Below are positions 1-43,686 of a DNA stretch of 64,000 nt, one piece after another; position 1 is the first letter of the stretch; every line of letters starts with the position of its first letter. The DNA is taken from the IMG/VR virus record IMGVR_UViG_3300034061_005520, positions 62,001-126,000 of that record; one strand, given 5' to 3'. A program made the translations under genes and the position numbers. Source of the DNA: a virus. Below the pieces are notes generated by a model. It was not told where the DNA came from. It saw only the letters and a list, made by a program, of their open reading frames with translations, and did not search any database.

Positions 1-3000
1 CATAGCTTGTTTAGCCATATCAGCAATAGTATTGATTTCCGGAGATGATGATGTTGATGGATTTGTAAGATCAATCATAGCGGAGTCGTTCTGCGCTTCT
101 TTCCACTTTTCATATTCTTTTTCGTAGTCTGTAGACGGCTGTTTTACACCCTTATACAGTGGGGCTTCTCCGGCATCGGCGCGCTGTTTATCAATTATGC
201 GCTCGGCTTCTTTAGTTGATACATCTTTACCAGTCATTGTCTTGGGAACATTCACAGGATCTTGCTGAAGAGGAGATAGTGCTATTTCAGCCGCGGTATC
301 CACAGCCATATTAGCACCAGCCTCGACTAATGGATTTTGAATTGCTCTTTTGGTAATCTTAGTAGCATTTGCTGCATATCCAACGAAAGGAATAGCAGCG
401 GCTGCATTTAAACCCGCGTCGATACCAAAGTCCATGCGATTTTTAGGATCTTTAGACATAGCAGCTCTTCCTGATGATATGGCTGCATTTGCAAGATCCG
501 CAAATTCTCCTATTCCTGGTATAAAGCCGCCTAGCTCCAATGCGCCCTGTAGCACATCTAAACCCAAGCTTCTTGTTTCTACTTCTGTTTTTTGGTCTTT
601 TGCTTCTGAGAGTGCTTCTTTTGGTTTGTTTTCTTCTACTCTGATATTATTGTTTTCGAGCGGCTTTATTTGATCTGGCTTTGGGGGAACTGGAGATATC
701 TTCATTTCTGAAGGCTGTTTTTGTGGTTCCTTTTTTAAAGCATCAGACATTTCTTTACAACAGCAGCACAGCCTTTCGTCTAGTATTGCTCTTATATCCA
801 TCAATACGTCTAATGCGCTATCTCCGGACATGCCATAATCATCAGCAGACTCGCCGCTCTCTGAGCTATACCCAGCACCAAGAGCCGAAAACGCACCCAT
901 AAGAGTAAATATTAATCCCAGTCCGGGAATCGCCTTAGCAGCTTTTCTACTAAAGCCTCTTCCGCCGCCACGAGGAGACCTTGAACTTCTACCACTATCG
1001 GTATCAGCATCTGGAGTTTTTGTTTTGCTGTCTGTGTCAGAATCAGGCGTATCCTTGCTTTTATCTGCTTCTGCTGGTGTCTTCTCTTTATTTTTGTTTC
1101 TTCTGTCCTCTCTTCTATCTCTAAACCGATTTACTTCATTTACCGCAAATAGTCCACCAACCCCAGCGCCTAGTGCTACTACCAAGGCATTAAATATACT
1201 ACCAACTACAGCTCCAGCATCTTTATTCGATTCATCTGGAGGTTGAGATTTTCCTTTTGATCTACCTGTTGACAAGGGTTTTTGTGGTGCTGGTTGTGCT
1301 TCTACGGGTGGTCTTGGTACTTCAGAGTCAGTCTTTGCTGTTTCTAGTATTTTCGCTAACTTTGTCTCTAGGCCAGCAAATAATGATTCGATATCCATTC
1401 TTAATTCTTCAGCGGCTAAAAGAGCATTATCTGCTAGTGCTTGTGCTGCTTGTGCTTGAACTTCTGTGGCCTGTCTATATGCTTCTATATATTGTTCTTG
1501 TACTGGATCCTTGCCTTCTTCGGCCATCTTTAAACTCTGATCAACGGTCATTGGATTGCCTTTAGCATCAACGCCTATCACGGACTGAAGTATTTGTTGT
1601 CCTTGTGGATTGGCCTCTATCATAGAACGTGCTAGTTTCGCTTCCATTTGTTTGGCAATATTTTCCGGTATCACAGACTTAATATTGTCTAGTCCAGCAA
1701 AAGCGTCTTGTCTGAATTGCAGACTTCCTAGTTCCCGTCCTGACGCTTTTCCGCTTATGGTCTTTGTGTAAGCACCCATTTGGCGAGTAAAATCGGCAAG
1801 CTCTCCAGAGTCTGATGTTAATAGTCTGCGAGCCAAGCCCCTAGCATTGTCCCCTAGTTGTTGTCTATCCTGTATAGCATTTAAGGCATTACTTGCTGCC
1901 TCGCTATTATTTGCTAGTTCTTCTAGGGCTTTATTGCCATTATTGATAGCTCTCGTATGTTTGGCTAATGCTTCTTGATCTTTTTTAATTTGACTATTAA
2001 TAGCCTCTCTGTTTTCACCGGGCATACCAATTTTCTTTTTATTTTCATCTATACGGGCTTGTATTATATTTTTCTGTTCAATACTATTTTTCATAGAATT
2101 ATTAATAGCATTTGGATCTGTGGATCCACCCGGAATTAAACCAGAAGTTAAGCTTTTAACCCTAGTATTGAAGGGATCATTTAGCTGCTCTAGTGTTGGG
2201 GACTGACCCAAAGCTCTTGCTAAATCAAGCTCCGCATTAATTCTAATATCTGCTACCTTTCTATTCCACTCATCGCTTTTATCTAGATTAGAATTATATT
2301 GATCTAATAAATTAATAGATGCCTGAAGAGTGTCATTATAAGCCTTTTGAATCGCCTGCCCGGTCTTTAGTGCCTCTTCTGTAAGTTTTGTTGCGTCCTG
2401 TACAAACGACATATCTTCTGCAAGATCGGCTAAGCCAACGTTACCTTGTCTATTCTGGATTTTTTCCTGTAGCTTTTCTCTCAGCTGGGTCTTCACTTGT
2501 TCGCTCATCTCAATTCCAGCAGCATCAAAAGACTTTTCTAGTTTTTCCATAATAGAATCAACATCACCATCCTTTGCACCCTTGAGAGCTTTTGGTAATT
2601 CGTCTTGTAAAATTTTAGCAGTTATAATATTATTTTTTAGCGTATCTCCTGCATCGCCTCCGCCTGCAATAGAAGCTGTTTGATTAGCGATTTGTTCAAC
2701 TTCAGCCATTGAGTATGCGCTAATATTTCCTAAGGCATTTTCATTGGATCTATCCACGCTTCTAATCTTAGCATCGCCCGTAAGACTATTGGCTCTCATA
2801 ACAGCATCTGCTTCAAATTTTTCTAATTCTTGACTATATCTGAGCAGGCCTCCTTGGGCTCTTTTATATATGTCTATAAGATTGTCTGTCGCTGTTGCTA
2901 GTTCTCTAGATGCTCTAGCTAATACTTGTTGTTTTAATGCTAGTTCGCTATCAACTGCTAGTTGTTCCTTGCCTATATTCAGCGCTTCCTTTTTACCTTC

Positions 3001-6000
3001 TTCTGTGCTGAGCTGTTTTCTGATATCCTCTGGTGTTTTACCTTGTTTGGCTGCGTAGTCTATGTACTTATCCATAAAGATATCTTCTTCGCTTAATCCA
3101 GACTCGGCAAGTTGCTGATATGTTTGGCTGGCTCTAGCAAGTTGAGTATTTCTTTGATCTATAGAGTCTTTATTTTCTTCGTTGTATTGCTCTTGCGTCT
3201 GATCTTTTCTTTTTTCTGGTAATTTGACTAATGAGTCTAAAAAGCTATTTATGCTTTCTGTACTTGTTTGGGATAATGCAACATCTCCTAGTTTTTCGGC
3301 TGCCTGAAGCTGATTCCCTATCTGTGTAACCAGAGACCTACCAGCTTCTCCTTCTACGCTTTGGCCAGTCAAAGCTCCTGTCACACCAGTAAAATCAAAA
3401 GCCCTAGACATACGCACCAGCTCGGACCCTCCAGTAAAATTAGCCTGTGCTCTCAAAGAATTAGCAACAGATACTTCTTTTTGAAAACTAGACTGAGCAT
3501 TAGAGAAGTTTACATCGGTGGCTGCCGCATCTAATTTTTTAAATGCTACACTGAGGTCGGAAGAGGTTTTGTCTAAAGCCTTCAGTGTATTCTCTAGTTT
3601 TTTATTATTTATAGCATTAAAAGCTCCTTCTATTCCTTTTACAATAGCTACGGTAACTCCTCCTATTAGAGCTCCTACTGGCCCGGCTATTTGACCGCCC
3701 AATAAAGCTCCGCTAGCCAATCCCTGACCAGCACCCTGTATTCCTCCTACTACACCAGCAGCTGCCACGCTGTCTCTCATCCCAAAAGACTCTATAAGTT
3801 TTGGTAATTGATCGCCAGCGACGGCTAGTCCTCCGCCAAAAGCCACCAATGAACCGCCAACCGATTGGAATTTTTTATCAAGACTCTCTCCAATTTTACC
3901 CATAGTTTTACCAAAAATTCCTAAGCTTTTGCCAAATAATTTAGAATTTATATCAGATGCAGAACTAAGGGCTTTTCCTATTCCGGAACTAGCAAATCTA
4001 GAAACAGCATCTGGGGCTATCTCAGCAAGTTTTCCAAATTTTTGACCAGACTCGCTCTGCATAAATCTTTGTTGACGATATTGTTTATTATTCTTACTAG
4101 ATACCTCTTCCCTTAGAACGTCTGAGGTTAGTCCATTCTCTTTGGCGATATCGTCAAAAGCTATAGCAGCATTCTCTGCGCTGGTTCTGGTTTTGTTGAG
4201 CATATCTGACAGGACGGTATCTTTTTCTACAATCGTATCGAAAGAATCCGCACCCTTTTTCAGAGAACCCACAAGTCTGGCCGCTGCTTTATCTATCTCT
4301 TCAGCATTTCTTGAAGGATCCATCTCTTTTAATTTTGCGGCAAATTCTTCTTTAGCCGCATCGAGTTGCTCTTTATCTGTTGATCCTTTGAGGCTACTGC
4401 TTTGACTGAGTGCGCTGTATCTAAAGCCAATTTGTTGATTTTTAAGATTTTCAGCCAAGTCTTTTTCCCGACTCACAACCTTTGCTGCTAATGTTGAGCG
4501 GAAAGCATCTGCTGTTTGTCCGGATTGTTTAGCTCTATATGCAAAATATTCTTTTTGTTCTTCTTTGCGTTTTTTAACCTCGTCTTTCGCTGTGCTTGTA
4601 CTGGACGGGGATGGGCCGGATGGGGATGGACCGGATGCTGGAGTCTCGGAAGCAGGTGCAGTTTCACCTGTGGGCTTAGCTGTATCTATTCCTACTCTAG
4701 TATTAGTGGCCTCCACCAAGGATGATCCACCCCGACTCTTTTGAAGTTCATCTAGACGATCAAAAATTTTCTTAAGACTTTGTGCTCTGTCTTCATTACC
4801 AGATGCTCTCTTTTCTATGGATAATTTTCTAATACCTGCGGCCACATCCACAATAGCTTCACTTGCACTCTTTGTTCCAAGAGCTTGATTGGCTATCGCG
4901 TCTTTAATAGTATTAATTAGTTCTTTTCCACCACTATTATTTTCTTTCGCACTCACTTCTACAAGAATAGATTTTAAGATTTTTTCTGATACTCCAGCTA
5001 CTTCTCCTCCAACCTCAAATCTTTGGACTCCTACTGGACCACCCTTGTTATATCCCTTAATCTTATCAGCCTTGTTCATTCTATTTAATTTACTATAACC
5101 AATTTGTTGTGCGGCCTTTTTATTGATAACAAATTCACCAGGAGTTAATAGTGCTGGTACAGTATCTTCTACAGAACCACCTGTTGCAAAGGGCTTTCTA
5201 GCATTATCATATTTTGGATTAAACTTAGCGTCTGGAGCACCCATTAATTGTCTAGCAAGATCTAGTTGTGAGGAGCTTGCTTGTGGTGTTGTGGTTCCGC
5301 TTAATAATACCTGTCTTAATTGATTGCTGTTGATTAATAAATCTTTTTTAGATGCTTTTCTCTTAAGCTCTAGAGCTAGGTAGTCCTTAAACTCTTGTTC
5401 TGTAAAAGCATTAGTATTAGCATACTTAACTAGGGCATCAAACTCACTATCTTTTAATCCTGTACCCTTTTGAAGACCATATACTTGTCCACCAAGAGCA
5501 AATTGTGAGCGACCAAATCTTTGTCTAGCCTCTAAACGACCCCTATCAAACTGACCATCTGCTACTTTACGATTTGCTGTTGCTTTTGAAGCTCTATTAG
5601 TAACATCTGTCATAACACCAGAACTAACACCTAGTAAACCAGCCAGTTGTTCATTTAGTCCACCGGGGAAGTCTATAGCCTTAGCCATTGGGTCATAACC
5701 ACCACCAGCAACGCCAAGAGCTTTCTCGAAAATTGAACCAGCAATATCTTCTATGTCCTTTGAGGCAACAGATCTTACAAACTTACGATCCAAATTAGGT
5801 ATGCTGCCAGAAGCTTTAGATATTTGCTCCCCAACTTCTCTGACCATTTTTTCAATACCTGCCCTAATTTTAGCTTGAACTCTCTTAGCAACATTAGGTG
5901 GTAATGCGCCGGTTTCTAGTGTAGCAGGAACGCCTCTCACAGACAGACCTGATTTGTCATCAGAAGCTCCGGGGGTTTTGATCTCTTGCTCTGATCTATC

Positions 6001-9000
6001 TCCAGTAATACCAACTACTGCTAATGATCTAGAAGCAGCAACAGTGCTATCTCTAGCGGCTTTATTTTTTGATATTATACCAGCATCAACTAGCTGCTGT
6101 AAGAATGAATCTTTTTTAGCTCTGTCTGATTGCTCAAGAGATTTTTTACCCAGCAGTTCGTAGTCGTATGGTATGCCAGCCTTTTGTGCAAGTGATATAA
6201 GCTTGGCCCTACCTAATTGTTCTAGTGCTTCTGCTTCTCCACCGACTGCGAATCTCTGTACTAGACCACCTAGAGCTTTTCTTACTCTATTTACTCTTGG
6301 GCCTTTGGTTCTCATAGCTTCAAGAGCTGGCTCTTTTGAACCACCAGAGGTAAATACCATGTTTTGTACTGGTATCCCAAACATTTCTTGAATATGTTCG
6401 GCTAGTCCTTCTACTCTTTTTGATTTAGAAATGATAGATAGATTACTGGGTTCGATTACCCCCTGCTTGATAAGATCTTGTAGTTGTTTACCAAACTGTG
6501 TTAGTCGTGCTTGTTTGGCGTCTTTTAATCTAGCTTTTGGGTCTCTAAAGTATTTTTGTAAAACTTCATCTTTAGCGGATGCTGTTTTGGCACTAGCATA
6601 TGCGGCATCTCCAACTGTTCTTTGTAAAGTTCTATCAAAATCAACCGCACCACCACCCTCTTTGATAATCTTGTCTAGTGGTGATCCTGGGCTTATTCCC
6701 GGTCTTGGGAGCATAGAGCCCTTAGCATTTGGTAGATCGTCTATTAGCGGGAAACCGCCGTTGGCGAGTTTTTGAATTATACCACCAGCAGCTTTGGGTC
6801 TATATGTCGCATCTAGTTCTTTTCTTAACTCTTGAGCTTCTAGAAGCTTAATTGATCCTAATGATATAGAGTCTTGCTTTTCTTTTTGAGCTTCTTTAAA
6901 TTGTGATAAAACAGATTCTGGAGATTGTTCAAGTTTATATCTTAATAGCTTACTATATAGCTCGGCGTCGGAAGTTGATTCATTTTTAAGTTTAACTTCA
7001 TATAAATTATCATCACCTATTAGATCAATAGGAGCATTACTTTCATTGGAGGATGATGTGCCTAATCCAAGATATTTGGAGGCTCCTAGTTTTTTCTTAA
7101 GTAGTTCTTCTGCCAGTGGTCCTATTCGTGCGTCATAGCTTTTTTGTTTACGAAGTAGTGTATCTTTTGTATTTAATAGCGGCTCTAATTCCTTTATCCC
7201 GCTAGCAAAATCTGCAACGCTCAAGTATTTAGATATTTTTTCTCTCTCGATGGAGGAACCTTGGCTGCTAATATAATCATCGTCTTCTATGTTTACGTTT
7301 TTGTTTTGATATTCAGAAATAGTCTTTTTGCCATATCCCCTTTTGCCAGTTCCCTTTAAGTTCTGTATGCTAACAGCACCACCGTTAGCATACCTATTCA
7401 TCTTGTGAAGACTGCTGGCCCCTAGCGTTTCGACCGCCTTCTTCCGTATAACGAACTCACCCGGTTCCAACATGGCCGGAACAGTATCTCCGTTACCAGA
7501 GCCAGGAACCAGTCCACCCCTAGCAAATTTTCTAACAATTCCTCCACTATTTAGTCCTGTTCCAGTAGACGGTCTCGACTTAATAGTATCATCAAGTTTA
7601 AGTACAGAAGCATTTAATTTATTGGTTGAGTCTGTTAATATTTTTAAAGCTGATGTATTTTCTCTTATAGCATCACTAGCTCTAGCTGTTGTATCGTCTC
7701 TCTCCTTATCTTTGGCTCCACTAAGACTTTCTCCAATATTGCTGCCAACACCACGAGCACCACCACCCTTAGAAATACCGCCCATAAAGCCGCTACCAAA
7801 CTGTCTAATAGCGGAAACGCCCTTTACTGCACCCATAATAGCAAGTATGGGTAGGATAGGTTTGAAAGCACTAGCTAAACTAATTAAACCACTGGCAAGC
7901 CCGGTTACAATTTTGAACAAAGCCTGGAATGACTGACTCTTACCAACATCTCTAATCAGTGCTAAAAATTGTTCTCTAACCTTTGCTAATTGATTGGCTA
8001 AAGATTTTTGTGCGGTAACCTGGGCGTCGTATAAGCTACCCTGTCCCTTTTGCGCTACTGCCAATGCGTCCTGTGCTGTTTTAAATTGTTGAATAAGTGG
8101 AATAACCTTGCCGATCTGACGGAATCCACCAAGCTCTTCAACTATGGACGAGAATCTTAGGTCTCTAGGATCCAATTGGCTTAATGCGGCGCTTAGTCTT
8201 TTCACTGCCTCATACGGGCCGACGAATTTACCTTCTAGATCAGTTAGCTCGACCCCGTATTCCTTAAGCTGATCAATAGTTTTAGCTCTTTGAATACGTG
8301 TAAAAATTGTTCTCAAACCAGTAGCAATGGTTTCTGCGCTTTCACGAGTAGTTTGTCGAATACTTGTAAATACTGCTATAAACTCGTTCAGAGCGTCCGT
8401 TCCTTCGCTAACTCCTCTACTAGAAGCGGCGAACACACCACCGGTACGCTGAATAGCAGCAATAATATCTTTAGACTCAACAGCGAAAGCTGCTGCCACA
8501 GCATTGATCGAGCCTAGCGCTTTTTCTAGGTCTCCGGCTTCGAGACCGAACTGGCGAATAGCGGCAATAGCACCTTCTGTTGTATCTGTAAGATTGTCGA
8601 AAGATGGAGCTAGTTCGGTTTTTGCCAAGGCTGCTAGTGCTACTCTGGTCTCGTCAGCACTCAAGCCAGCTTGTGCTAAGGTAGAAGCTACGGACATTAA
8701 GCTTTTACTGCTAACACCAAGAGTTGTGGATAAGTTGGATATTTCTTTTTCTAGACTCTTAAGACCAATTTCACCCCTACCTGTTACCTGTTGTAGTTTC
8801 ACTAGTTCTTTGTCGAATTCTACGAAAGCCTGAAACCCACTATTAACAGCATTGATTAATGCAAAGACACCGCTAGTAACAACGCTAAATGCGGCAAATC
8901 TTCGAATAGCAAGAGCTGATTGTTTTCCGAACTCTTCCATCTCTGTTGTAGCAACTTTGATATTTTTTGCTGTTTGACCAACGGATGTGGAGGTTTTAGA

Positions 9001-9294
9001 AAAAGCATTATCTGTTTTACTAGTAGTAGATTGTACAGAAGAAAGGGAGGACGATAGGTTTCTAAGAGCCGAGTCTAAAGCTGTAGTATTGTTCCTTGCT
9101 TGAATTAATGATGCGTTCATAGCATCTAGTCTATTTGTGACATTATCAATAGATCTTGCTGCTTGGGGACTAACATTAACTTTTACGTCCGCAGAAACTG
9201 TTTGAAATTCTCTACGGATCTGGGCAACTACTGTCTTTAGGTTACTTGGTGCTTGTAGATTGATCTGTGCTGTTAGATTAAAAGCTTGGGCCAT
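1..9294 (-). CDS. Tail tape measure protein, partial (C-terminus off the left edge)
   Basis: The frame is open from the ATG at 9294 to the window edge, at least 3098 codons. It follows two chaperone-like genes, the usual place for a tape measure, whose role is to set tail length and pass into the host at infection. The N-terminal third is Ala/Gln/Ser-rich helix. Residues about 600-620 and 1375-1395 carry the phage tape measure signature VPAMLEPGEFVIRKKA / VPALLTPGEFVINKKA, with Gly-Gly repeats nearby. Between them sit two enzyme-like stretches: about 715-775 looks like a PD-(D/E)XK fold (AEELL, then PIDLIGDDNLYEVK) and about 880-990 like a HAD fold (VDFDRTL, then LSIISKS). A Gly/Ala-rich hydrophobic stretch lies near 1840-1890. 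Four consecutive cysteines (residues 2843-2846) lie near the visible end. The family call is strong; the embedded enzyme calls are inference from motifs. Confidence 0.93.
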   Translation of the reverse strand, partial: MAQAFNLTAQINLQAPSNLKTVVAQIRREFQTVSADVKVNVSPQAARSIDNVTNRLDAMNASLIQARNNTTALDSALRNLSSSLSSVQSTTSKTDNAFSKTSTSVGQTAKNIKVATTEMEEFGKQSALAIRRFAAFSVVTSGVFALINAVNSGFQAFVEFDKELVKLQQVTGRGEIGLKSLEKEISNLSTTLGVSSKSLMSVASTLAQAGLSADETRVALAALAKTELAPSFDNLTDTTEGAIAAIRQFGLEAGDLEKALGSINAVAAAFAVESKDIIAAIQRTGGVFAASSRGVSEGTDALNEFIAVFTSIRQTTRESAETIATGLRTIFTRIQRAKTIDQLKEYGVELTDLEGKFVGPYEAVKRLSAALSQLDPRDLRFSSIVEELGGFRQIGKVIPLIQQFKTAQDALAVAQKGQGSLYDAQVTAQKSLANQLAKVREQFLALIRDVGKSQSFQALFKIVTGLASGLISLASAFKPILPILAIMGAVKGVSAIRQFGSGFMGGISKGGGARGVGSNIGESLSGAKDKERDDTTARASDAIRENTSALKILTDSTNKLNASVLKLDDTIKSRPSTGTGLNSGGIVRKFARGGLVPGSGNGDTVPAMLEPGEFVIRKKAVETLGASSLHKMNRYANGGAVSIQNLKGTGKRGYGKKTISEYQNKNVNIEDDDYISSQGSSIEREKISKYLSVADFASGIKELEPLLNTKDTLLRKQKSYDARIGPLAEELLKKKLGASKYLGLGTSSSNESNAPIDLIGDDNLYEVKLKNESTSDAELYSKLLRYKLEQSPESVLSQFKEAQKEKQDSISLGSIKLLEAQELRKELDATYRPKAAGGIIQKLANGGFPLIDDLPNAKGSMLPRPGISPGSPLDKIIKEGGGAVDFDRTLQRTVGDAAYASAKTASAKDEVLQKYFRDPKARLKDAKQARLTQFGKQLQDLIKQGVIEPSNLSIISKSKRVEGLAEHIQEMFGIPVQNMVFTSGGSKEPALEAMRTKGPRVNRVRKALGGLVQRFAVGGEAEALEQLGRAKLISLAQKAGIPYDYELLGKKSLEQSDRAKKDSFLQQLVDAGIISKNKAARDSTVAASRSLAVVGITGDRSEQEIKTPGASDDKSGLSVRGVPATLETGALPPNVAKRVQAKIRAGIEKMVREVGEQISKASGSIPNLDRKFVRSVASKDIEDIAGSIFEKALGVAGGGYDPMAKAIDFPGGLNEQLAGLLGVSSGVMTDVTNRASKATANRKVADGQFDRGRLEARQRFGRSQFALGGQVYGLQKGTGLKDSEFDALVKYANTNAFTEQEFKDYLALELKRKASKKDLLINSNQLRQVLLSGTTTPQASSSQLDLARQLMGAPDAKFNPKYDNARKPFATGGSVEDTVPALLTPGEFVINKKAAQQIGYSKLNRMNKADKIKGYNKGGPVGVQRFEVGGEVAGVSEKILKSILVEVSAKENNSGGKELINTIKDAIANQALGTKSASEAIVDVAAGIRKLSIEKRASGNEDRAQSLKKIFDRLDELQKSRGGSSLVEATNTRVGIDTAKPTGETAPASETPASGPSPSGPSPSSTSTAKDEVKKRKEEQKEYFAYRAKQSGQTADAFRSTLAAKVVSREKDLAENLKNQQIGFRYSALSQSSSLKGSTDKEQLDAAKEEFAAKLKEMDPSRNAEEIDKAAARLVGSLKKGADSFDTIVEKDTVLSDMLNKTRTSAENAAIAFDDIAKENGLTSDVLREEVSSKNNKQYRQQRFMQSESGQKFGKLAEIAPDAVSRFASSGIGKALSSASDINSKLFGKSLGIFGKTMGKIGESLDKKFQSVGGSLVAFGGGLAVAGDQLPKLIESFGMRDSVAAAGVVGGIQGAGQGLASGALLGGQIAGPVGALIGGVTVAIVKGIEGAFNAINNKKLENTLKALDKTSSDLSVAFKKLDAAATDVNFSNAQSSFQKEVSVANSLRAQANFTGGSELVRMSRAFDFTGVTGALTGQSVEGEAGRSLVTQIGNQLQAAEKLGDVALSQTSTESINSFLDSLVKLPEKRKDQTQEQYNEENKDSIDQRNTQLARASQTYQQLAESGLSEEDIFMDKYIDYAAKQGKTPEDIRKQLSTEEGKKEALNIGKEQLAVDSELALKQQVLARASRELATATDNLIDIYKRAQGGLLRYSQELEKFEADAVMRANSLTGDAKIRSVDRSNENALGNISAYSMAEVEQIANQTASIAGGGDAGDTLKNNIITAKILQDELPKALKGAKDGDVDSIMEKLEKSFDAAGIEMSEQVKTQLREKLQEKIQNRQGNVGLADLAEDMSFVQDATKLTEEALKTGQAIQKAYNDTLQASINLLDQYNSNLDKSDEWNRKVADIRINAELDLARALGQSPTLEQLNDPFNTRVKSLTSGLIPGGSTDPNAINNSMKNSIEQKNIIQARIDENKKKIGMPGENREAINSQIKKDQEALAKHTRAINNGNKALEELANNSEAASNALNAIQDRQQLGDNARGLARRLLTSDSGELADFTRQMGAYTKTISGKASGRELGSLQFRQDAFAGLDNIKSVIPENIAKQMEAKLARSMIEANPQGQQILQSVIGVDAKGNPMTVDQSLKMAEEGKDPVQEQYIEAYRQATEVQAQAAQALADNALLAAEELRMDIESLFAGLETKLAKILETAKTDSEVPRPPVEAQPAPQKPLSTGRSKGKSQPPDESNKDAGAVVGSIFNALVVALGAGVGGLFAVNEVNRFRDRREDRRNKNKEKTPAEADKSKDTPDSDTDSKTKTPDADTDSGRSSRSPRGGGRGFSRKAAKAIPGLGLIFTLMGAFSALGAGYSSESGESADDYGMSGDSALDVLMDIRAILDERLCCCCKEMSDALKKEPQKQPSEMKISPVPPKPDQIKPLENNNIRVEENKPKEALSEAKDQKTEVETRSLGLDVLQGALELGGFIPGIGEFADLANAAISSGRAAMSKDPKNRMDFGIDAGLNAAAAIPFVGYAANATKITKRAIQNPLVEAGANMAVDTAAEIALSPLQQDPVNVPKTMTGKDVSTKEAERIIDKQRADAGEAPLYKGVKQPSTDYEKEYEKWKEAQNDSAMIDLTNPSTSSSPEINTIADMAKQAM

Positions 9295-9382: not shown

Positions 9383-10279
9383 TTATGAAGCTGTGGGGGT
9401 TGGGGTGGTATCGACTGTTTCCTGTTTAGTCTCATCTTTAGCTGGTTCCTTAATCTCTTCTGGTTTTTGTGTAACAACTTCTGGTTCCGGATTAATGGGG
9501 TTGCCACTATCATCCAAAAATGGTTTAAATTCTAGTACATAATCTCCAGTATCACTAACAGGATTTCCATCCTTGTCTACAAACTCACCCTTTTCATTAA
9601 TAAATCTGCCGTTCTCGTCAATCAAACGACCTTCTTGGTCTACCAACTTACCTTCTTTATTAATTAGTCGTAGCTTATCATCAACAAACTTATACTGTTT
9701 CAAAAACTTATTTTCCGGAAGCTTTTCTTCGTAATTGTTTTCCAAACCATATAGCATACCGGCCAAGTTCTGTGCGGCTAGTATTGCCACTGGGTCGGAA
9801 GCCTTATTTAAATACTCGTCATAGCTATTAAAATATGGCTTCTTATTATCATTATACACCGTACAAGCAGAAACTAGATAGTTAAATCTAGCATTATCAG
9901 CCTGACCTTCTGCGGTATGGGTATCGAGATTGGTTTTGACCGCAATTAGGTCTCTTAGGTCTTCTCGATCCTTTTTCATGTCTAGGGCTATTTTCTTGGC
10001 TTCTTGTAGTGGGATGCCACCCTTTGCTAGCTTTCTTTCACTCTCCAGAATCTTGGATTGGAGAGCACTAAATTCAAACTGCTTCTTATCGTCCCACAGA
10101 CCCTGCTCAACAAGAAGATCATCTAGCTTTGCTCTAACTACTGCCTTAGCCTTAAGAGCATCGCTAAAAGCCGTATTATAGACTTTTGTAGCTTCCCTTT
10201 GATCAGCCAAAGAAGGCGACCTTACTAAAAATGTGACTTCCTTATTGTCGATACTGCCTGTAAATGTTCTTGTCTTCAT
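9383..10279 (-). CDS. Tail assembly chaperone-like protein with heptapeptide repeats
   Basis: 298 residues, directly upstream of the tape measure gene, where tail assembly chaperones (gpG/gpT type) are encoded. The N-terminal 20 residues look like a beta structure, followed by a helical, charged body. Residues 205-239 are five perfect 7-residue repeats: LINKEGK, LVDQEGR, LIDENGR, FINEKGE, FVDKDGN. The C-terminus is acidic and Pro/Thr-rich. The role is inferred from position and composition only. A second frame (9307-9513) overlaps its end, but reaching it needs a +1 shift and I see no clear slippery site. Its start overlaps the stop of the upstream gene by one base. Confidence 0.6.
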   Translation of the reverse strand: MKTRTFTGSIDNKEVTFLVRSPSLADQREATKVYNTAFSDALKAKAVVRAKLDDLLVEQGLWDDKKQFEFSALQSKILESERKLAKGGIPLQEAKKIALDMKKDREDLRDLIAVKTNLDTHTAEGQADNARFNYLVSACTVYNDNKKPYFNSYDEYLNKASDPVAILAAQNLAGMLYGLENNYEEKLPENKFLKQYKFVDDKLRLINKEGKLVDQEGRLIDENGRFINEKGEFVDKDGNPVSDTGDYVLEFKPFLDDSGNPINPEPEVVTQKPEEIKEPAKDETKQETVDTTPTPTAS

Positions 10280-10572
10280 TATTGTCCTCTTTCTGATCTA
10301 TTGTTAAAACGATAGTTATAGTGATAGTGGTCTTTGCGAGACTTTATCTGCTCTAGATCTTTTATAGCAGATCGGAGCTGATTGTTCCCATTATTCAAAA
10401 TTCTGTATCTTACATCTTCCCATTTTAATCTAAAGTTATGTTCGGATTCTGTCAAGTCTTCATCATCTTTATCAAATCCCCATAAATAACCAAAAGCTTC
10501 TTCGAACTGAAATAGGGCTCCGATCATTGTGGTTTGAAACCGTTTAGAAAGCATGTCTTGTTGATCATCCAT
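10279..10572 (-). CDS. Small protein of the tail chaperone region
   Basis: 97 residues, rich in Asp, Asn and Arg, with a central FQFEEAFGYLWGFDKDD segment and a polar C-terminal tail. It has no motif I recognise. Its start is five bases after the stop of the upstream gene and its stop touches the next start, so it is translationally coupled within the tail operon. A role in tail assembly is suggested by position only. Confidence 0.6.
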   Translation of the reverse strand: MDDQQDMLSKRFQTTMIGALFQFEEAFGYLWGFDKDDEDLTESEHNFRLKWEDVRYRILNNGNNQLRSAIKDLEQIKSRKDHYHYNYRFNNRSERGQ

Positions 10573-11679: not shown

Positions 11680-12954
11680 TTAAGCTCTGCCTGGAAACTT
11701 AACTTCACCAGCCTTAATTTCAACTGGCACCGAACGATTTACCGATTGACCACCAGGGGCACTGGTTGTTGTTGGTGCTGATGTTGTTGTTGGTGCTGTT
11801 GTTGTTGTTGTTGGTAAGGTATAGCTAATGGGAGGGTTTGATGGGGAGTTCGCATGCCAAACAACGAAATCGTTGAAGGTTTGATAACTATATGTTACAG
11901 TAACATTACCACCACCAGTATCACCACCAGTATAGTTAACAGATGTTAACTTATTTTTGGTGCCAAGATAAATGTTTGTACCTTCGCATGTCTTGAGATA
12001 AATCTTATTATCTCTTAGATTGAAGCGTGGAGTACAAGCACCTTCGCTTCCTGTAGCGACAGAGGGTGTGCCATTAATACTAGTTGCTGTATAGTAGCCG
12101 TCTTCTGTGGCATTGATACCGTCGCCAGTTGTTGCTAATACCGAGAACTCCGATGTTACGGAAACTGGGAATGTAACATAGCGATGATAAGGAGCAAAAG
12201 AACCAAGCTCTTGAATAGCTTCACGACCAAGATCCACACTTACTGTGATATTCTGGAAGTGAGTATTAAAGCCATCACCATCTGTTGCGCCCTCTTCATT
12301 TTTACCATGATTAATACTGGCAGTATCGTTGGTGATACCAGGAATTTCTGTTGGAAATAGACACGCACTCATATCTAGATGCTGTCTACGATTAACGCCA
12401 GAATTAGCTGCAGGAACATCATTATTTCCTGTAAACTTGCCAGAATTTACAACAGCCCCATCACTCCAAACCTTGTCGTTGCCGACTAGAGTTACGTCTT
12501 CTGTAAAGTTGCCATCAACAGGGAAGGTATAACTAACACTGGATACGTACATGCCTGTGCATGTTACAAGACCCTTGGCAAGAGTAGCACCTGTGGCAGA
12601 TAACTCCGTATCTGGGTAGATCGATAGTCTCATATCTGTTCTAGCATTTTGACGGCCAGCTAAGTCTGCGGAGGTGGCTACAAGGTTGGTGCCAAGAGAG
12701 GAACCAGTTTCTGTGGCTAACACATAAATTAATGGATAGCCATCTAGAACTTTATTGAGGGTTACTTCGATCTGTGGGATGCCTTCGATGTTCTGGTAGA
12801 TAGCAAGCTGACCCATCTCGAATACTTGCTCTAGGTTGAAGTTTGTGGTAATACCAACGGTTTGTAGACCGTGAATCGCTGCTTCTGTGTCATCAGCACC
12901 TGTTGTGCCTAGTGTTACCTGTTGGATTGCGTAGTAAATACGTTTATTTGACAT
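11680..12954 (-). CDS. Tail tube (major tail) protein
   Basis: 424 residues. The N-terminus (MSNKRIYYAIQQVTLG) followed by statements of a beta-rich fold (GIPQIEVTLNKVLDG, GMYVSSVSYTFPVDGNFTEDVTLVG) is typical of phage tail tube proteins, which polymerise around the tape measure. The length and the place upstream of chaperone and tape measure genes agree. Near the C-terminus (about residues 378-395) there is a short Thr/Pro/Ala linker of the same kind as in the two display proteins, then a short tail ending VKFPGRA. No sheath gene is adjacent, which favours a non-contractile tail. Confidence 0.75.
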   Translation of the reverse strand: MSNKRIYYAIQQVTLGTTGADDTEAAIHGLQTVGITTNFNLEQVFEMGQLAIYQNIEGIPQIEVTLNKVLDGYPLIYVLATETGSSLGTNLVATSADLAGRQNARTDMRLSIYPDTELSATGATLAKGLVTCTGMYVSSVSYTFPVDGNFTEDVTLVGNDKVWSDGAVVNSGKFTGNNDVPAANSGVNRRQHLDMSACLFPTEIPGITNDTASINHGKNEEGATDGDGFNTHFQNITVSVDLGREAIQELGSFAPYHRYVTFPVSVTSEFSVLATTGDGINATEDGYYTATSINGTPSVATGSEGACTPRFNLRDNKIYLKTCEGTNIYLGTKNKLTSVNYTGGDTGGGNVTVTYSYQTFNDFVVWHANSPSNPPISYTLPTTTTTAPTTTSAPTTTSAPGGQSVNRSVPVEIKAGEVKFPGRA

Positions 12955-13989: not shown

Positions 13990-14627
13990 TGTGAGAGGGC
14001 CTTTTCTAAAAGTTTTTGTACGTCGGGCTTGCAAGCCTCTATTGCTCTAGTTATCCAGTTATCATTGATAGTTCCTGAGTATTCTGGTGGTACTCCCCAA
14101 CCCTGACCATCCGAAGCTTTCATGATAGCTCCTCCTGTTCTAGATCTACTATGAGGACCTATAAACACTTCATAGTTGTCTACTAGAGTGGTCGTACCTT
14201 CTAATAATAGCCACTCTAGCCAAGGTATAGTAGCCCCAACAGCACTTCTTTCAATACTAGCTAAATTTAAACTTAATACATCAGAAAAATTAGCTCTAAT
14301 CATTTTGATAGTAAAACTACTTTTAATTCTATTGTTCATTATTTGAGGTGGTTTATATTCTACAATAGTGTTATTTATCCAAGCATTAATTAAATCTTCC
14401 ACTCTCATTGCTGCGTCTGGTATTCCAAGCTCTAGTCTAAGTTGCCCATTAACAAGTGAATTATATTCTGGTTGAACTAAAATACTTTCTTTAATTATAG
14501 AGAATATATTACTTTGTACATATTTACTTGCTTTATTCATAAAGGCGGACGCCTCAGGTAATAAAGCATTAAGGATACCATTTCCTATTTCTGAATTATT
14601 CTCTATGAGTTTTAAAGATAGCTTCAT
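13986..14627 (-). CDS. Minor virion / neck protein
   Basis: 213 residues. The segment VDNYEVFIGPHSRSRTGGAIM followed by WGVPPEYSGTINDNWITRAIE resembles conserved phage neck or tail-completion proteins seen next to connector genes. The helical N-terminus (about 1-100) is followed by a mixed fold. Its start touches the stop of the display-protein gene and its stop overlaps the next start. Function is inferred from position. Confidence 0.6.
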   Translation of the reverse strand: MKLSLKLIENNSEIGNGILNALLPEASAFMNKASKYVQSNIFSIIKESILVQPEYNSLVNGQLRLELGIPDAAMRVEDLINAWINNTIVEYKPPQIMNNRIKSSFTIKMIRANFSDVLSLNLASIERSAVGATIPWLEWLLLEGTTTLVDNYEVFIGPHSRSRTGGAIMKASDGQGWGVPPEYSGTINDNWITRAIEACKPDVQKLLEKALSQ

Positions 14628-16060
14628 TATACTGTCGGTAAATAGTAAGCCGCCTTATACCATTCGTCTTCGGAAGGAATCCAGTAGTTTGCGTCTGGAT
14701 TTTTAGCAAAAGACACACCAGAGTTGGCTCCGTTTAAAGTATAAACTCCGCTTTCTGTGGTTAGACTGCTTTGTGGTCCGGATACCATGCCGTTGTGTAG
14801 CCAGTTTACGAATCTAGCAGCTCTAAACCAAGTAATATAGTTTACTGGCTTGTTACCCATATTAGCTTTTACTGTATAGTCGGAATTAATGCCTCCTCGT
14901 ATATTCGATGCCATAGTAGAAACATAAGCACTATAGCTATCCGCACCCTCTATGCTTAATAAGAATTGAGCATATTGACTGTTCGTTATAGGATATCTAG
15001 AAATACAATAACTGTAAGAAACAGATCCATACCCTGTAGAATTAGCAGGATTGTTTTGTTCAAGCACAGGTACAAATTCAATTAGAGTATTTCCTTCTGG
15101 AATAGGATATTTGGAACAAACCCTAAACCCGTAGTTTATAGCGCCGCTGTTTGGTGCTGCGAACTTTCTTGATATAGACGATAGATCAGAAGCTATGCTT
15201 GTATTATAGCTACCTCCTAGTATGCCTCTGTTTGTACTTTGTATGATACTATCATTCCATTCCCATGTATTTCCTGATTGATCCTGGGTTCCAAAATAGC
15301 TGCTGGAACCATTTGTTCCTACACTAGTAATATTACCAATAGCTCCATTCCAGGTAGCATTACTTCCATAATTAGCAAAATTACCAGTGTTACCAGCGGA
15401 GCCGTTTCCTATGCCGTTAGCGGAAACCCTTGTTGGAGCAGAGTTGCTTCGTGTCGCATACATTGCATACGGAGGAACAGTTGTGGTTGGCGCTACCGTG
15501 GTGGTTGGAACGCCCGTGGTTGTTGGACCACCGGTTGTGGTTGGACCGCTTGTTGTTGGCTCACCCGTGGTGGTTGGGCCGCTGGTTGTTGGAACGCCCG
15601 TGGTGGTAGGCGCTGTTGTGGTTGGCGCTGTTGTGGTTGGCGCTGTTGTGGTTGGCGCTGGCGCTGTTGTGGTTGGCGCTGTTGTGGTTGGCGCTGTTGT
15701 GGTTGGCGCTGGCGCTGTTGTGGTTGGCGCTGTTGTGGTTGGCGCTGTTGTGGTTGGCGCTGGCGCTGTTGTGGTTGGCGCTGTTGTGGTTGGCGCTGGT
15801 GTTGTAGCGGAGCCATTATCTATAATTATCTCTGTAAGAACCCACGGGAGCATTTCGCTCTTACTATCAATAAGATATGTATTGCCATCAAGAAGACTAG
15901 GTAGAGAATTGAACAAGCTGGAGGAGGAGAAAGAGACATATCCTGTACCACTTTCATTAATACTAAAAATAGTGTTAAAGTTAGGTTTAATATCGCTAGT
16001 GGCTAGAACTAGGGAAGAACCATTATATGTTAACATTGTTAATTTTTTAGTAATATTCAT
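14627..16060 (-). CDS. Virion display protein: Thr/Pro linker plus FGE/C-type-lectin-like domain in permuted order
   Basis: 477 residues. Residues 1-80 form a small module (SGTGYVSFSSSSLFNSL) shared with the protein at 28579-30009. Residues about 84-196 are a repeated APTTT linker. The remainder resembles the formylglycine-generating-enzyme/sulfatase-modifying (C-type-lectin-like) fold, but the halves are swapped. The usual C-terminal half (ATRSNSAPT, GNTWEWND, GGSYN, YGFRVCS; about 197-318) comes first. The usual N-terminal half (YCISRYPITNSQYAQFL, PVNYITWFRAARFVNWL, YWIPSEDEWYKAAYY; about 350-475) comes last. FGE-like domains in phages often bind host surfaces rather than catalyse, so a host-recognition or display role is likely. 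No retroelement for diversification is seen nearby. Confidence 0.75.
   Translation of the reverse strand: MNITKKLTMLTYNGSSLVLATSDIKPNFNTIFSINESGTGYVSFSSSSLFNSLPSLLDGNTYLIDSKSEMLPWVLTEIIIDNGSATTPAPTTTAPTTTAPAPTTTAPTTTAPTTTAPAPTTTAPTTTAPTTTAPAPTTTAPTTTAPTTTAPTTTGVPTTSGPTTTGEPTTSGPTTTGGPTTTGVPTTTVAPTTTVPPYAMYATRSNSAPTRVSANGIGNGSAGNTGNFANYGSNATWNGAIGNITSVGTNGSSSYFGTQDQSGNTWEWNDSIIQSTNRGILGGSYNTSIASDLSSISRKFAAPNSGAINYGFRVCSKYPIPEGNTLIEFVPVLEQNNPANSTGYGSVSYSYCISRYPITNSQYAQFLLSIEGADSYSAYVSTMASNIRGGINSDYTVKANMGNKPVNYITWFRAARFVNWLHNGMVSGPQSSLTTESGVYTLNGANSGVSFAKNPDANYWIPSEDEWYKAAYYLPTV
15478..15812 (-). repeat. Tandem repeat encoding the APTTT linker
   Basis: A 15-base unit (on the plus strand GGCGCTGTTGTGGTT) is repeated many times, with 6-base GGCGCT insertions between groups of three and degenerate copies at the left end. 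Near-identical copies point to recent expansion or homogenisation. Confidence 0.9.
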
Positions 16061-40376: not shown

Positions 40377-40448
40377 GGCCCCATAGTTAAATGGATATAA
40401 CAGGACTCTTCTAAAGTCTAGTTAGAGGTTCGATTCCTCTTGGGGCTA
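40377..40448 (+). tRNA. tRNA-Arg (UCU)
   Basis: 72 bases. Acceptor GGCCCCA with TGGGGCT (one G-U pair), D-stem GTTA/TAAC, anticodon stem GGACT/AGTCT with loop CTTCTAA, T-arm AGAGG TTCGATT CCTCT. No encoded CCA. Reads AGA, which the phage uses often. Confidence 0.93.
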
Positions 40449-40501
40449 CTATGAAAAACGAAGCAGAAACTACTGAACAGTTTTTGAGTATGTGTGAACT
40501 G

Positions 40502-40588
40502 CTCCTAAACTCTTTGAGGATAAAGACTTAGGGCGAACCGGCGCGGCCCGGCTTGACGTAACTCCTTTAGCATCAACACCTTGCGTCA
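40502..40588. repeat. Intergenic 38-bp dyad element, copy 12
   Basis: TAAAGACTTA and TAACTCCTTT (40559-40568) flank GGGCGAACCGGCGCGGCCCGGC. Centres 38 bp apart. The TAG of the left box also stops a 26-residue frame after the tRNA. Confidence 0.88.
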
Positions 40589-40613
40589 AAAATAATTTCT
40601 TCAAGAAAATGCC

Positions 40614-40642
40614 TTGACAGTACCGATAACCTAGTGTAGAAT
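40614..40642 (+). promoter_or_regulatory. Promoter, YCGATA type
   Basis: TTGACA, 17 bases containing CCGATA, TAGAAT. Confidence 0.8.
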
Positions 40643-40664
40643 CATCAGACACGCTAGGAGAAGA

Positions 40665-41372
40665 ATGATGAAAACCGCAGACGGTAATGATAAGTTGGGT
40701 AAGGGTTGCATTGTGGTTTCGCGTCCGGTTGGCGATACCTGCCCGTCAGATTGCGATTATCTTGGAAACGGCTGTTATGCCGAAGGTACTGAACGGCAGT
40801 ACAAAAACGCCCGTGTCGCTGGTTTTGCTAACGTAGTCACGGAGAAAAACAAAATCCGTGCCATGATTCTTGACGCAAAAAAGCGTGAGAAATCTATCCG
40901 CTGGCATGAACGCGGCGATTGGTTTCTCAACGGTCAACTTGACACAGACTACGTTGATAATGTAACGTGGGCTTGCGAGAGTATTCTTGCTAGTGGCGAT
41001 AGTCTGCCCGATATGTGGTTCTATACTCATATCTACGATAGTCGGCTCGTGGCTCTGGAAAAGTATATGGCAGTCTATGCTAGTGTTCACGACGATAACG
41101 ATATGAATGAGGCTAAGAATCAAGGCTTCAAAATGTTTGCGTGGTGCGATAGCGATATGAAAATTGCCCCGAAGCGACCAAAGAACAAGGCTAAGGCCGA
41201 CGCTTGGCGGCAAGCGTTGCCCAAACTGGTCGTGCTGAACGGTGAGAAGTTTGTGACTTGTCCAGAAATTCGTCGCGGTCGTTCGGTTATCACTTGCACC
41301 GGCACGAAGGATAGTATAAGTTGTGATATGTGCGTCAAGGGTTTGGCTAACGTACTGTTTCCCGCTCACTAG
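40665..41372 (+). CDS. GP88-like conserved phage protein
   Basis: 235 residues. NDKLGKGCIVVSRPVGDTCPSDCDYLGNGCYAEG (about 8-41) is the signature of the phage GP88 family, with further Cys near the C-terminus (VTCTG ... CDMCVKG) that could bind metal. No enzymatic role is established for this family. The region is GC-richer than its neighbours, suggesting strong expression. The next gene begins nine bases later. Confidence 0.75.
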   Translation: MMKTADGNDKLGKGCIVVSRPVGDTCPSDCDYLGNGCYAEGTERQYKNARVAGFANVVTEKNKIRAMILDAKKREKSIRWHERGDWFLNGQLDTDYVDNVTWACESILASGDSLPDMWFYTHIYDSRLVALEKYMAVYASVHDDNDMNEAKNQGFKMFAWCDSDMKIAPKRPKNKAKADAWRQALPKLVVLNGEKFVTCPEIRRGRSVITCTGTKDSISCDMCVKGLANVLFPAH

Positions 41373-41380
41373 GAATAATC

Positions 41381-41974
41381 ATGGCTACTAAATTTAGTTA
41401 TGTTGGAAAGTATGAGAATAGTGGTAGCAGGAACTCTTTCTATAAACTGTCTGGAAAACCATATGGTTTCAAGAGTTTTCCTAATAAGAGTTTGGCCGAG
41501 TTTGCTCATGCTGTTCAAAGTCATTTAGCCCCATATCTTGCCCCAAAGGTTTACAGTTCGGTTTGCAAAATCCGTATTGCTAACTATTTTGTGGATGGTA
41601 TAGAGAATAACAAGATTAAATATCGAACCGAAATGGTTTTGAGTGATTGGGGTTACTTAACCGAAATTGCAAAGCCTTTTGTGTGTAGAAATAGTGAATG
41701 TGAGGGGTCTTGCATAGATTCTGGATGTTGCCCTAACTATTATGTTTTATCTGATTTGTTGGAAGAAATCAGCGACTACGGGGTGGAATACTCTGATTGC
41801 CATGAGGGTAATTTTGGATATGTTAGGCGTGGCAAATCTAGGATATTAGTTCCGATTGACTTTGGACGAGAAAGTATCGGATATACGGACGATGATATGT
41901 TTCCAGAAGTTTGCTATCAAGGCGTTGATGATGCTTATTGTGACTGCCCTAAATGCGAGGAATGTTATGTCTAA
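41381..41974 (+). CDS. Protein-kinase-like (HRD/DFG-type) protein
   Basis: 197 residues. EYSDCHEGNFGYVRRGKSRILVPIDFGRES (about 137-167) has the order D-x-H-x-x-N followed by DFG, the catalytic and metal-binding core of kinase-like folds. A Cys cluster (CRNSECEGSCIDSGCC) sits before it and a second one (CDCPKCEEC) at the end. No glycine-rich loop is obvious, so it may be an atypical or inactive kinase. Overlaps the next start by eight bases. Confidence 0.6.
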   Translation: MATKFSYVGKYENSGSRNSFYKLSGKPYGFKSFPNKSLAEFAHAVQSHLAPYLAPKVYSSVCKIRIANYFVDGIENNKIKYRTEMVLSDWGYLTEIAKPFVCRNSECEGSCIDSGCCPNYYVLSDLLEEISDYGVEYSDCHEGNFGYVRRGKSRILVPIDFGRESIGYTDDDMFPEVCYQGVDDAYCDCPKCEECYV

Positions 41975-42209
41975 ATATTATGTCAAATGTGGTACGCTAG
42001 AACTAATCTACTCAACAAGTAAAAATCCTCTTGAGGCAGCAGTAACTACTCTTGGTGAAAGCAATAAGTTCGATGTTCTAGATGAATACTTCTATATAGA
42101 TGAGCGTGGTTTTAGAGACTATGCGACAGCAGATAAAGAAACTCAGGTAATCAAATTGAATAAGGTGTGTAGAAAAGCGGGCTGGGAAATTAATAGAGAA
42201 GACGAGTAA
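41967..42209 (+). CDS. Hypothetical small protein
   Basis: 80 residues from the ATG at 41967 (MSKYYVKCGTLELIYSTSKNPLEAAVTTL...). Similar openings occur in small phage proteins of unknown role. Starts inside the previous gene. Confidence 0.6.
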   Translation: MSKYYVKCGTLELIYSTSKNPLEAAVTTLGESNKFDVLDEYFYIDERGFRDYATADKETQVIKLNKVCRKAGWEINREDE

Positions 42210-42213
42210 AACT

Positions 42214-42298
42214 AACCGCAAACCCTTTGGGCGTAAGCACTTAGGGCTAGCGGGGCGCCTCCGATTCTTCGTAACTCCTTATACTTCAACCACTTAGA
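42214..42298. repeat. Intergenic 38-bp dyad element, copy 13
   Basis: TAAGCACTTA (42234-42243) and TAACTCCTTA (42272-42281) flank GGGCTAGCGGGGCGCCTCC. Centres 38 bp apart. Confidence 0.88.
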
Positions 42299-42316
42299 AA
42301 AAATTAAAGAATGGGT

Positions 42317-42345
42317 GGACGGATACCGATAAGTATGATATGCTA
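42317..42345 (+). promoter_or_regulatory. Promoter, YCGATA type
   Basis: TGGACG, 17 bases containing CCGATA, TATGCT. Weaker boxes than the others. Confidence 0.55.
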
Positions 42346-42366
42346 ATCAGACGCAGAGGAGAAAGA

Positions 42367-42735
42367 ATGATCCAGTGGATAGGGGTGATAATTGCCCTGT
42401 TAGGTTTGGCCTATAATGGTGTAAAAGACTATCAAAAGGGTGATATAAAAATACCCAAACTACCAAAAAAAGAAGTATTGACAAAGGTGGTTTATCCGGT
42501 ACAATACTGCTTAATGGCTTACGACCCTAATGTTGACAAGGTTTTTTACTTACACGAAAATGGACAATGGCATGATTACGCTCCACAACAACGACGATAC
42601 CCGACCACGCCGCAAGTACGGCAAGATCAAAGTCAAGGCCAAGCAGCCTTGGGAGGCTCCTACGGGACACAAGGAGTATCGGGATACTACTATGGACAGC
42701 AGGCCCAAGCGACAGCGAACACGACGAGACATTGA
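42367..42735 (+). CDS. Small membrane-anchored protein
   Basis: 122 residues from the ATG at 42367, preceded by GAGGAGAAAG. Residues 4-20 (IGVIIALLGLAYNGVKD) form a membrane helix. The Gln/Gly/Tyr-rich C-terminal half overlaps the next gene in another frame and may be shaped by it. Function unknown. Confidence 0.55.
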   Translation: MIQWIGVIIALLGLAYNGVKDYQKGDIKIPKLPKKEVLTKVVYPVQYCLMAYDPNVDKVFYLHENGQWHDYAPQQRRYPTTPQVRQDQSQGQAALGGSYGTQGVSGYYYGQQAQATANTTRH

Positions 42736-42766
42736 CAGGGGTTGGCAGCAAGAGTATGATATGTAG
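42560..42766 (+). CDS. Overlapping basic protein
   Basis: 68 residues (MDNGMITLHNNDDTRPRRKYGKIKVKAKQPWEAPTG...DSRPKRQRTRRDIDRGWQQEYDM). The composition reads like a real basic phage protein, and most of it lies in a second frame of the preceding gene. No clear ribosome site; the start could also be the ATG at 42575. Confidence 0.5.
   Translation: MDNGMITLHNNDDTRPRRKYGKIKVKAKQPWEAPTGHKEYRDTTMDSRPKRQRTRRDIDRGWQQEYDM
42732..42760 (+). promoter_or_regulatory. Promoter for tRNA-Thr and tRNA-Gln
   Basis: TTGACA, 17 bases, TATGAT, ending 10 bases before tRNA-Thr. Lies inside the end of the overlapping basic gene. Confidence 0.68.
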
Positions 42767-42770
42767 GATT

Positions 42771-42843
42771 GCCGATGTAGCTTCAATGGCAGAGCAACGG
42801 TTTTGTAAACCGTGGGTTGTAGGTTCGACTCCTATCATCGGCT
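42771..42843 (+). tRNA. tRNA-Thr (UGU)
   Basis: 73 bases. Acceptor GCCGATG/CATCGGC, anticodon stem ACGGT/ACCGT with loop TTTGTAA, T-loop TTCGACT. No encoded CCA. Confidence 0.93.
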
Positions 42844-42844
42844 C

Positions 42845-42915
42845 TCCGGGGTAGTGTAACGGTAGCACCAGAGATTTTGGTTCTCTTTGTCTGGGTTCGA
42901 ATCCTAGCCCCGGAA
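42845..42915 (+). tRNA. tRNA-Gln (UUG)
   Basis: 71 bases. Acceptor TCCGGGG/CCCCGGA, anticodon stem AGAGA/TCTCT with loop TTTTGGT, T-loop TTCGAAT. One base after tRNA-Thr. Confidence 0.93.
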
Positions 42916-42933
42916 TTAATAAAGGAGATAATT

Positions 42934-43356
42934 ATGCTTGGAAGTAATGCGATATACTTGGCAAGAGAAATCGGCAGTTGGGGTCTCACCAAGATGGACG
43001 AGGCTCAAAGAATAGATACTATCAAAAAGAATGAAGTTACTATTCGTTCTTTTAATAATTCTATTAGCGATATGGGGATAATGATGTATGAGTTTATGAC
43101 TAATAACAGTAGATCTAACCTGTATGGTTATAAAATGAAATTTGCTGCTATAGAGAACATATCGGCCGAATTGCTTTCTTGTTTGACCTATAATAGTAAT
43201 GTAGCATTTGGTTCTTGCGAAAAAGACTATAATAGAATAGCAGATGACTTGACAGTTATGGCAAAGATTTTGGATTTTGAGATAGAGAATAATATGACAA
43301 GCACTGATATTCGTAGTAAGACTTATAAGATTATGCCAAGGGAAGTGGCGGTATAA
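42934..43356 (+). CDS. Hypothetical helical protein between tRNA genes
   Basis: 140 residues from the ATG at 42934, preceded by AAAGGAG. Helical, with Asn/Ser/Met-rich loops (FNNSISDMGIMMYEFMTNNSRSN). No recognised family. Confidence 0.6.
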   Translation: MLGSNAIYLAREIGSWGLTKMDEAQRIDTIKKNEVTIRSFNNSISDMGIMMYEFMTNNSRSNLYGYKMKFAAIENISAELLSCLTYNSNVAFGSCEKDYNRIADDLTVMAKILDFEIENNMTSTDIRSKTYKIMPREVAV

Positions 43357-43361
43357 TTTTT

Positions 43362-43433
43362 TGCCCGATAGCACAATGGTAGTGCGGCAAACTGTTAATT
43401 TGTAGGTTCTAGGTTCGAGTCCTAGTCGGGCAG
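43362..43433 (+). tRNA. tRNA-Asn (GUU)
   Basis: 72 bases. Acceptor TGCCCGA/TCGGGCA, anticodon loop CTGTTAA with stem GCAAA/TTTGT, T-stem CTAGG/CCTAG. Confidence 0.92.
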
Positions 43434-43436
43434 TTT

Positions 43437-43523: not shown

Positions 43524-43549
43524 TCGGAGGCTGACGCAGAGTTGCGGAC

Positions 43550-43620: not shown

Positions 43621-43635
43621 CTTAAAGTTTTGCTC

Positions 43636-43664: not shown

Positions 43665-43686
43665 ATTGGAAAGAAAGGAAACCAAT

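Follow-up and report, generated by a model that had tools for sequence, protein, structure and literature searches.

We analyzed a 64,000-nucleotide stretch of phage DNA (the window, bases 62001-126000 of the 152,676-base virus record IMGVR_UViG_3300034061_005520) and found that its giant tape measure protein (TMP) gene carries nuclease-like and HAD-like modules in a zone that lies between two GEFVI-KKA repeats and differs among related phages. We consider it probable that this TMP is a structural protein with built-in, exchangeable effector cargo that acts in the host. A broader proposal is that the TMP serves as a polymorphic delivery vehicle whose catalytically active, swappable modules (nucleases, phosphatases including a circularly permuted HAD, ADP-ribosyltransferases, kinase/nucleotidyltransferase pairs, and peptidases) enter the cytoplasm before the genome and disarm the host. 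We put this forward tentatively, as a possibility that falls a little short of even.

Tape measure protein gene and variable zone

The TMP reading frame runs off the start of the window, and the full open reading frame (ORF) comes to ~3634 amino acids (aa) in L005, one of two near-identical contigs (L005 and L006). The assignment comes from a TMP profile and a very long ORF downstream of tail genes. PhageMin_Tail matched the TMP at aa 183-377 (E 6.7e-22, Pfam), and PHROG tape measure families matched it at 4.3e-28. The gene, its repeats, and the modules between them are located as follows.

1 to 9294, minus strand: TMP gene
7375 to 7539, minus strand: first repeat, GGxVRKFA...DTVPAMLxPGEFVIRKKA, the left edge of the variable zone
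5506 to 7395, minus strand: exchangeable cassette, ~1.9 kb
6760 to 7227, minus strand: nucA, PD-(D/E)XK-like module with putative residues E729, D757, and E766-x-K768
6286 to 6759, minus strand: hadA, HAD-like module, probably circularly permuted, with D852-D853 (motif IV type), D885/D887 (motif I), S956 (motif II), and K987 (motif III)
5482 to 6171, minus strand: vvg/nucB-prime, 'AVVG...IDFPGGL...TDVT', whose C-terminal part aligns as a degenerate PD-(D/E)XK-like member of the nucB family
5113 to 5139, minus strand: second repeat, GEFVINKKA (aa 1386)

We gathered relatives with the conserved N-terminal part of the TMP from 80 IMG/VR loci (59-100% identity); these reduced to 56 non-redundant TMP ORFs. 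The best matches of the N-terminal part among 50,697 phage records were SPbeta-like and other TMPs at 22-27% identity, and distant relatives of this N terminus include SPbeta-group TMPs with a lytic transglycosylase annotation. The portal protein had no match. The phage lineage is essentially uncultured.

Both GEFVI-KKA repeats and the enzyme-like motifs between them were located where a preliminary description of this DNA had placed them, and the motifs recur in relatives beyond shuffle expectation. The GEFVIRKKA of the first repeat is at 7461-7435 (aa 612). When we searched the window with a degenerate DNA pattern of the repeat, the two copies were the sole matches, with 0 expected from shuffles. 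The preliminary description was right that the domains are embedded in the TMP but gave them too small a span, since the cassette covers ~7395-5506 and includes a third module.

L007 is the nearest relative that differs from the window. Nucleotides (nt) 1-1906 of the gene share 91% DNA identity with L007, similarity is undetectable from nt 1906 until nt 3798, and identity of 86% then resumes; DNA homology upstream of the gap ends at aa ~633, by the first repeat. The swapped block consists of nucA, hadA, and most of vvg/nucB-prime in the window and of hadB and nucB in L007. The L005/L007 pair is a clean, sharp-edged case of TMP cassette exchange, and this direct swap supports the earlier suggestion of modular exchange in the zone bounded by the repeats.

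The coverage of the window TMP by its relatives follows the same division. All of the relatives (55/55) cover it to ~aa 500, 4-14 cover it across ~aa 650-1350, and ~35 again cover the second repeat and aa 2150-2550. Identity among diverse members is 63-78% in the N-terminal part and mostly ~20-30% in the variable zone. The best explanation is that aa 1-480 and ~aa 2100-2620 are the conserved parts that do the tape-measure work. At least one of 14 module families is present in the zone of 53 of the 56 TMPs, in combinations and orders that differ; the families include two PD-(D/E)XK-like families, HAD-like, ADP-ribosyltransferase (ART)-like, and SNase modules, pairs of P-loop kinase and HIGH-nucleotidyltransferase modules, and HExxH modules. 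For example, hadA precedes vvg in the window, L046, and L066 and follows it in L036 and L042. Many modules are set apart by short GGxVQ(K/R)FAxGG linkers. The sequence comparisons indicate hypervariability between the repeats, and in the best explanation the enzyme-like modules, which lie both between and beyond the repeats, are cassettes exchanged among phages by recombination.

Nuclease-like and HAD-like modules

Profile, conservation, and predicted-topology evidence all support the embedded nuclease-like and HAD-like domains, and both recur, with conserved catalytic-type residues, in TMPs of related metagenomic phages. In nucA, AEELLKKK at aa 728 (7113-7090) is followed by PIDLIGDDNLYEVKLK at aa 755-770 (from 7032), which gives the residue order of the PD-(D/E)XK superfamily (a helix with E, then D, then (E/D)xK). 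In an alignment of 13 TMPs, the D was invariant, the E was conserved in at least 90%, and (E/D)x(K/R) was present in all. The motif set occurred in 12 of the 56 TMPs compared to a residue-shuffle mean of 0.56 and maximum of 4, and it was found in none of the remaining parts of the TMPs. One of five predicted structures of nucA was clearly best (predicted local distance difference test [pLDDT] score of 71). In its alpha-beta-beta-alpha-beta arrangement, a helix comes first, the D and ExK motifs fall on short strands, and helices and one more strand follow. This order agrees with the alpha-beta-beta-beta-alpha-beta core of PD-(D/E)XK domains; no fold match of the model was significant. We found no match of nucA to known families in Pfam or among PDB sequences, and a single nucA member used as the query retrieved no useful new relatives.

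A second family, nucB, has the same residue pattern as nucA and is present in 51 of the 56 TMPs. The nucA and nucB profiles matched weakly, with their motif columns in register (probability 51%, E 1.6e-4).

The hadA module contains AVDFDRTL at aa 883 (6648-6625) and LSIISKS at aa 952 (6441-6421). DxDRTL, ISKS, and GG(S/D)K are invariant across nine hadA sequences with identity down to ~54%, and HAD motifs I to III are present in order. The motif I and II assignments of the preliminary description therefore stand, but the domain is not canonical: the nine-sequence alignment lacks the C-terminal acidic pair of motif IV after motif III, and (L/M)(I/V)DD is found upstream of motif I in 9/9 sequences (IDD before DFDRT in the window). 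The hadA model has strands at 12-13, 44-46, 114-118, and 141-143 and a short strand at (I/V)DD. The nucA and hadA models thus both hold the expected short strands at the motif positions and do not consist of helices only. Based on the alignment and the model, we infer that hadA is probably circularly permuted, with motif IV ahead of motif I; this falls short of proof, since a doubled hadB profile, tried to detect a permutation, gave no alignment across the junction, only a 4-column LIDD match (E 0.3).

By hhalign, hadA matched hadB from motif I through motif II and the strand that follows (probability 94%, E 1.7e-7). The hadB module, present in 24 of the 56 TMPs, has DxDxT, S/T, K, and DD in order, with D12, D14, T16, A76-R77, and D128-D129 invariant and K116 conserved in at least 90%. 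This ordered motif set appeared in 0/200 residue shuffles and in none of the remaining parts of the TMPs. HAD models (HAD-IIIC and HAD-IA) were the commonest NCBIfam matches of hadB, all of them weak (best, 0.0047). The hhalign score of hadB versus cellular HADs was 30.5-33 over a short stretch around motif I, compared to a maximum of 19.8 in 60 column shuffles, and a five-sequence HAD set gave a full-length match of 136 columns (probability 74%).

Within IMG/VR, 40 of 41 hadB matches fall in TMPs with the same N terminus, with no stand-alone gene among them, and all of the hadA matches examined are inside giant TMP-type ORFs. A tblastn search of the 50,697 phage records returned nothing relevant for nucA, hadA, or hadB plus nucB. 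A hadB-like HAD domain (DFDETL...LTAR...FVDD) is also encoded at L201:6001-6429, within a giant ORF of >2,870 aa that is cut at the locus edge and has no TMP N terminus in the available part.

The pairwise ratios of nonsynonymous to synonymous substitution rates (dN/dS) were 0.11-0.18 for hadA, 0.13-0.21 for hadB, and 0.21 for nucA; these values are approximate because they come from simple counting and because dS is >1 in hadA pairs. They indicate that the nucA- and HAD-like domains are under purifying selection.

The zone in the relatives holds other enzyme-like modules. Independent Pfam matches point to enzymes of conflict or toxin type, namely ART-like domains (ADPrib_exo_Tox, best 4.5e-10; ART-PolyVal, 4.8e-4) and an SNase domain (1e-6, above Pfam's cut-off), and there are three families of HExxH modules. 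The P-loop kinase-like and HIGH-nucleotidyltransferase-like modules are always neighbors, in 14/14 TMPs (for example, L045:13082-14086). The kinase, HExxH, and most ART-like assignments are leads that rest on short motifs. We guess that the kinase/nucleotidyltransferase pair resembles an NAD-salvage enzyme split into its two halves, and that NAD would be consumed by the ART-like modules.

Directly upstream of the TMP gene, at 9383-10572, are two ORFs that overlap by one base (10279); their size and position suggest tail assembly chaperones, possibly with a frameshift. In the structural-gene ORF at 14627-16060, an FGE-sulfatase domain is accompanied by a long repeat rich in T, P, and A (TTTAP), and the ORF at 11680-12954 has a similar TTT-rich tail. 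Seven tRNA genes (Arg, Thr, Gln, Asn, Ser, Trp, and Lys) lie within ~3.6 kb at 40377-43976.

Proposed function and alternative explanations

According to the literature summarized in PMC13277306, TMPs leave the tail ahead of the DNA and become inserted in the envelope, and enzyme modules carried by a TMP could therefore be inside the host before phage gene expression. The lambda TMP is labeled by an inner-membrane partner during injection (PMC13190303). We propose that the TMP would be threaded through the tail tube with its module segments unfolded or staggered, ejected ahead of the DNA, and then inserted in the host envelope. The modules would be exposed to the cytoplasm and would act in the first minutes as take-over or counter-defense activities. 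The target of the nuclease could be host or competitor nucleic acid, and that of the HAD domain a phosphorylated nucleotide or nucleic-acid end. We infer both the entry of the modules into the cell and their action there. One further segment could be the membrane-inserting part; GxxxG segments of TMPs are discussed in PMC10240207.

3661 to 3840, minus strand: glycine-rich GxxxG segment downstream of the cassettes, a candidate membrane-inserting part of the TMP

Several observations weigh against effector cargo. The chief physical difficulty is the tube lumen: at ~4 nm, it should be too narrow for a folded domain of 15-20 kDa carried by several TMP copies, and delivery would require segments that are unfolded, staggered, or located outside the tube. 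PMC13277306 discusses one TMP domain as adapting in shape while inside the lumen and folding once it has been ejected. The nucB-prime of the window reads TDVT for (D/E)xK, with the K replaced by T, and therefore this module is probably not catalytic. Profile comparison gave no direct match of hadA to cellular HADs. Foldseek searches of the models against PDB and BFVD gave no match with an E of <0.001; motifs, profile comparisons, and topology are therefore the basis of the fold assignments. About 13 of the 16 functionally named matches in the nucA BFVD top 50 were nucleases, mostly of the PD-(D/E)XK type, all with an E of >0.1. The hadA-plus-vvg model gave no meaningful Foldseek match, probably because it is multidomain and permuted. 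Lastly, host assignment yielded only four contigs in metagenome-assembled genomes, each of a different group, placements that are probably due to mis-binning.

The modules could instead be structural or regulatory relics, enzyme-derived domains that catalyze nothing in the host and were retained to act as globular spacers, to bind DNA ends, or to interact with the tail or neck. The lost nucB-prime lysine, the lack of a standard motif order in hadA, the tolerance of TMPs for variation, and the poor fit of folded enzymes into the tail tube are all consistent with this explanation. However, conservation in hadB and nucA is highest at the catalytic-type residues and dN/dS is low, and spacers do not explain why unrelated families (ART-like, SNase, HExxH, and kinase plus nucleotidyltransferase) converge on the same zone, so we consider relics unlikely. 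Less likely still is that the modules work not after injection but in the producing cell or while tails are assembled, with roles in TMP processing, in packaging, or in keeping out competing phages. HExxH peptidase-like modules could process the TMP, and late-expressed nuclease domains could act on competing DNA, but neither role needs fusion to the TMP, and hadB is TMP-borne in nearly all of its viral-contig matches.

A coincidence of motifs in an ordinary, fast-evolving coiled-coil region is very improbable and already largely refuted. The modules of the window itself had no relevant match in Pfam, PHROG, or PDB sequences, the last also searched with profiles, and the Pfam and PHROG results are what such a region would give. 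The ordered motif sets, however, are absent from shuffles (hadB and permuted hadA) or far rarer in them (nucA) and are missing from the rest of the TMPs, and the alignments, strand-bearing models, and profile matches also argue against coincidence. We rejected a region of coiled coil only on strand content and motif statistics. There is similarly little to recommend the idea that the nuclease-like modules are homing-type mobile elements that insert themselves into TMP genes and carry the other modules along as passengers. Nuclease-like modules are common, as nucB illustrates, and the repeat edges could recombine, yet the modules are translated in frame within the TMP and have no stand-alone form in the material examined, and nucB is nearly universal rather than sporadic. 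Exchangeable effector cargo is our preferred explanation.

Relation to known systems

Some phage TMPs have cell-wall hydrolases embedded in them or carry C-terminal motifs. They resemble the TMP described here in having an enzymatic domain fused into the protein; they differ in that no wall hydrolase is among the families found here, and we rejected a wall hydrolase identity for the modules on that ground. The modules share signature residues and their order with the PD-(D/E)XK and HAD superfamilies but have no family-level match, and hadA is seemingly permuted and the window nucB-prime degenerate.

The polyvalent proteins of phages and conjugative elements, which are proposed to be co-injected with DNA (Iyer et al. 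2017, PMC5512222), are giant multidomain virion or transfer proteins that join ART, peptidase, nuclease, and other domains. By sequence, the TMPs have the same makeup, in that a single giant protein encoded for the virion combines several enzymatic domains unrelated to one another, and the ART-PolyVal and ADPrib_exo_Tox matches occur in the relatives here. Unlike here, where a TMP is the carrier and the zone is bounded by GEFVI repeats, the emphasis in that study is on head-packaged or type IV secretion system-linked proteins, and its main text does not include TMPs. The TMP-related effectors of contractile injection systems, Sle1 and Tme, have been shown to be packaged and membrane associated (PMC13277306) and also combine a TMP-like carrier with an exchangeable functional domain. 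They are bacterial injection-system cargo with one C-terminal domain, whereas the phage TMP has several internal enzyme-like modules. A 2023 survey suspected that TMPs are mosaic and confirmed no genuine recent case (PMC10684548). We found no description of an enzyme-cassette phage TMP in the open-access papers searched, which is no proof of novelty. By analogy, the modules may work in a polyvalent-like or TMP-effector-like way, in a carrier with no prior such description among those papers.

If this is true, swappable enzymes are carried by the very protein that determines tail length and clears the way for the DNA, and phage tails would be linked to the effector logic of contractile injection systems. 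The zone would also be a place to look for nucleases, phosphatases, and ADP-ribosyltransferases of new families overlooked by standard annotation. A testable prediction also follows as to what enters the host from a phage ahead of expression of the first phage gene.
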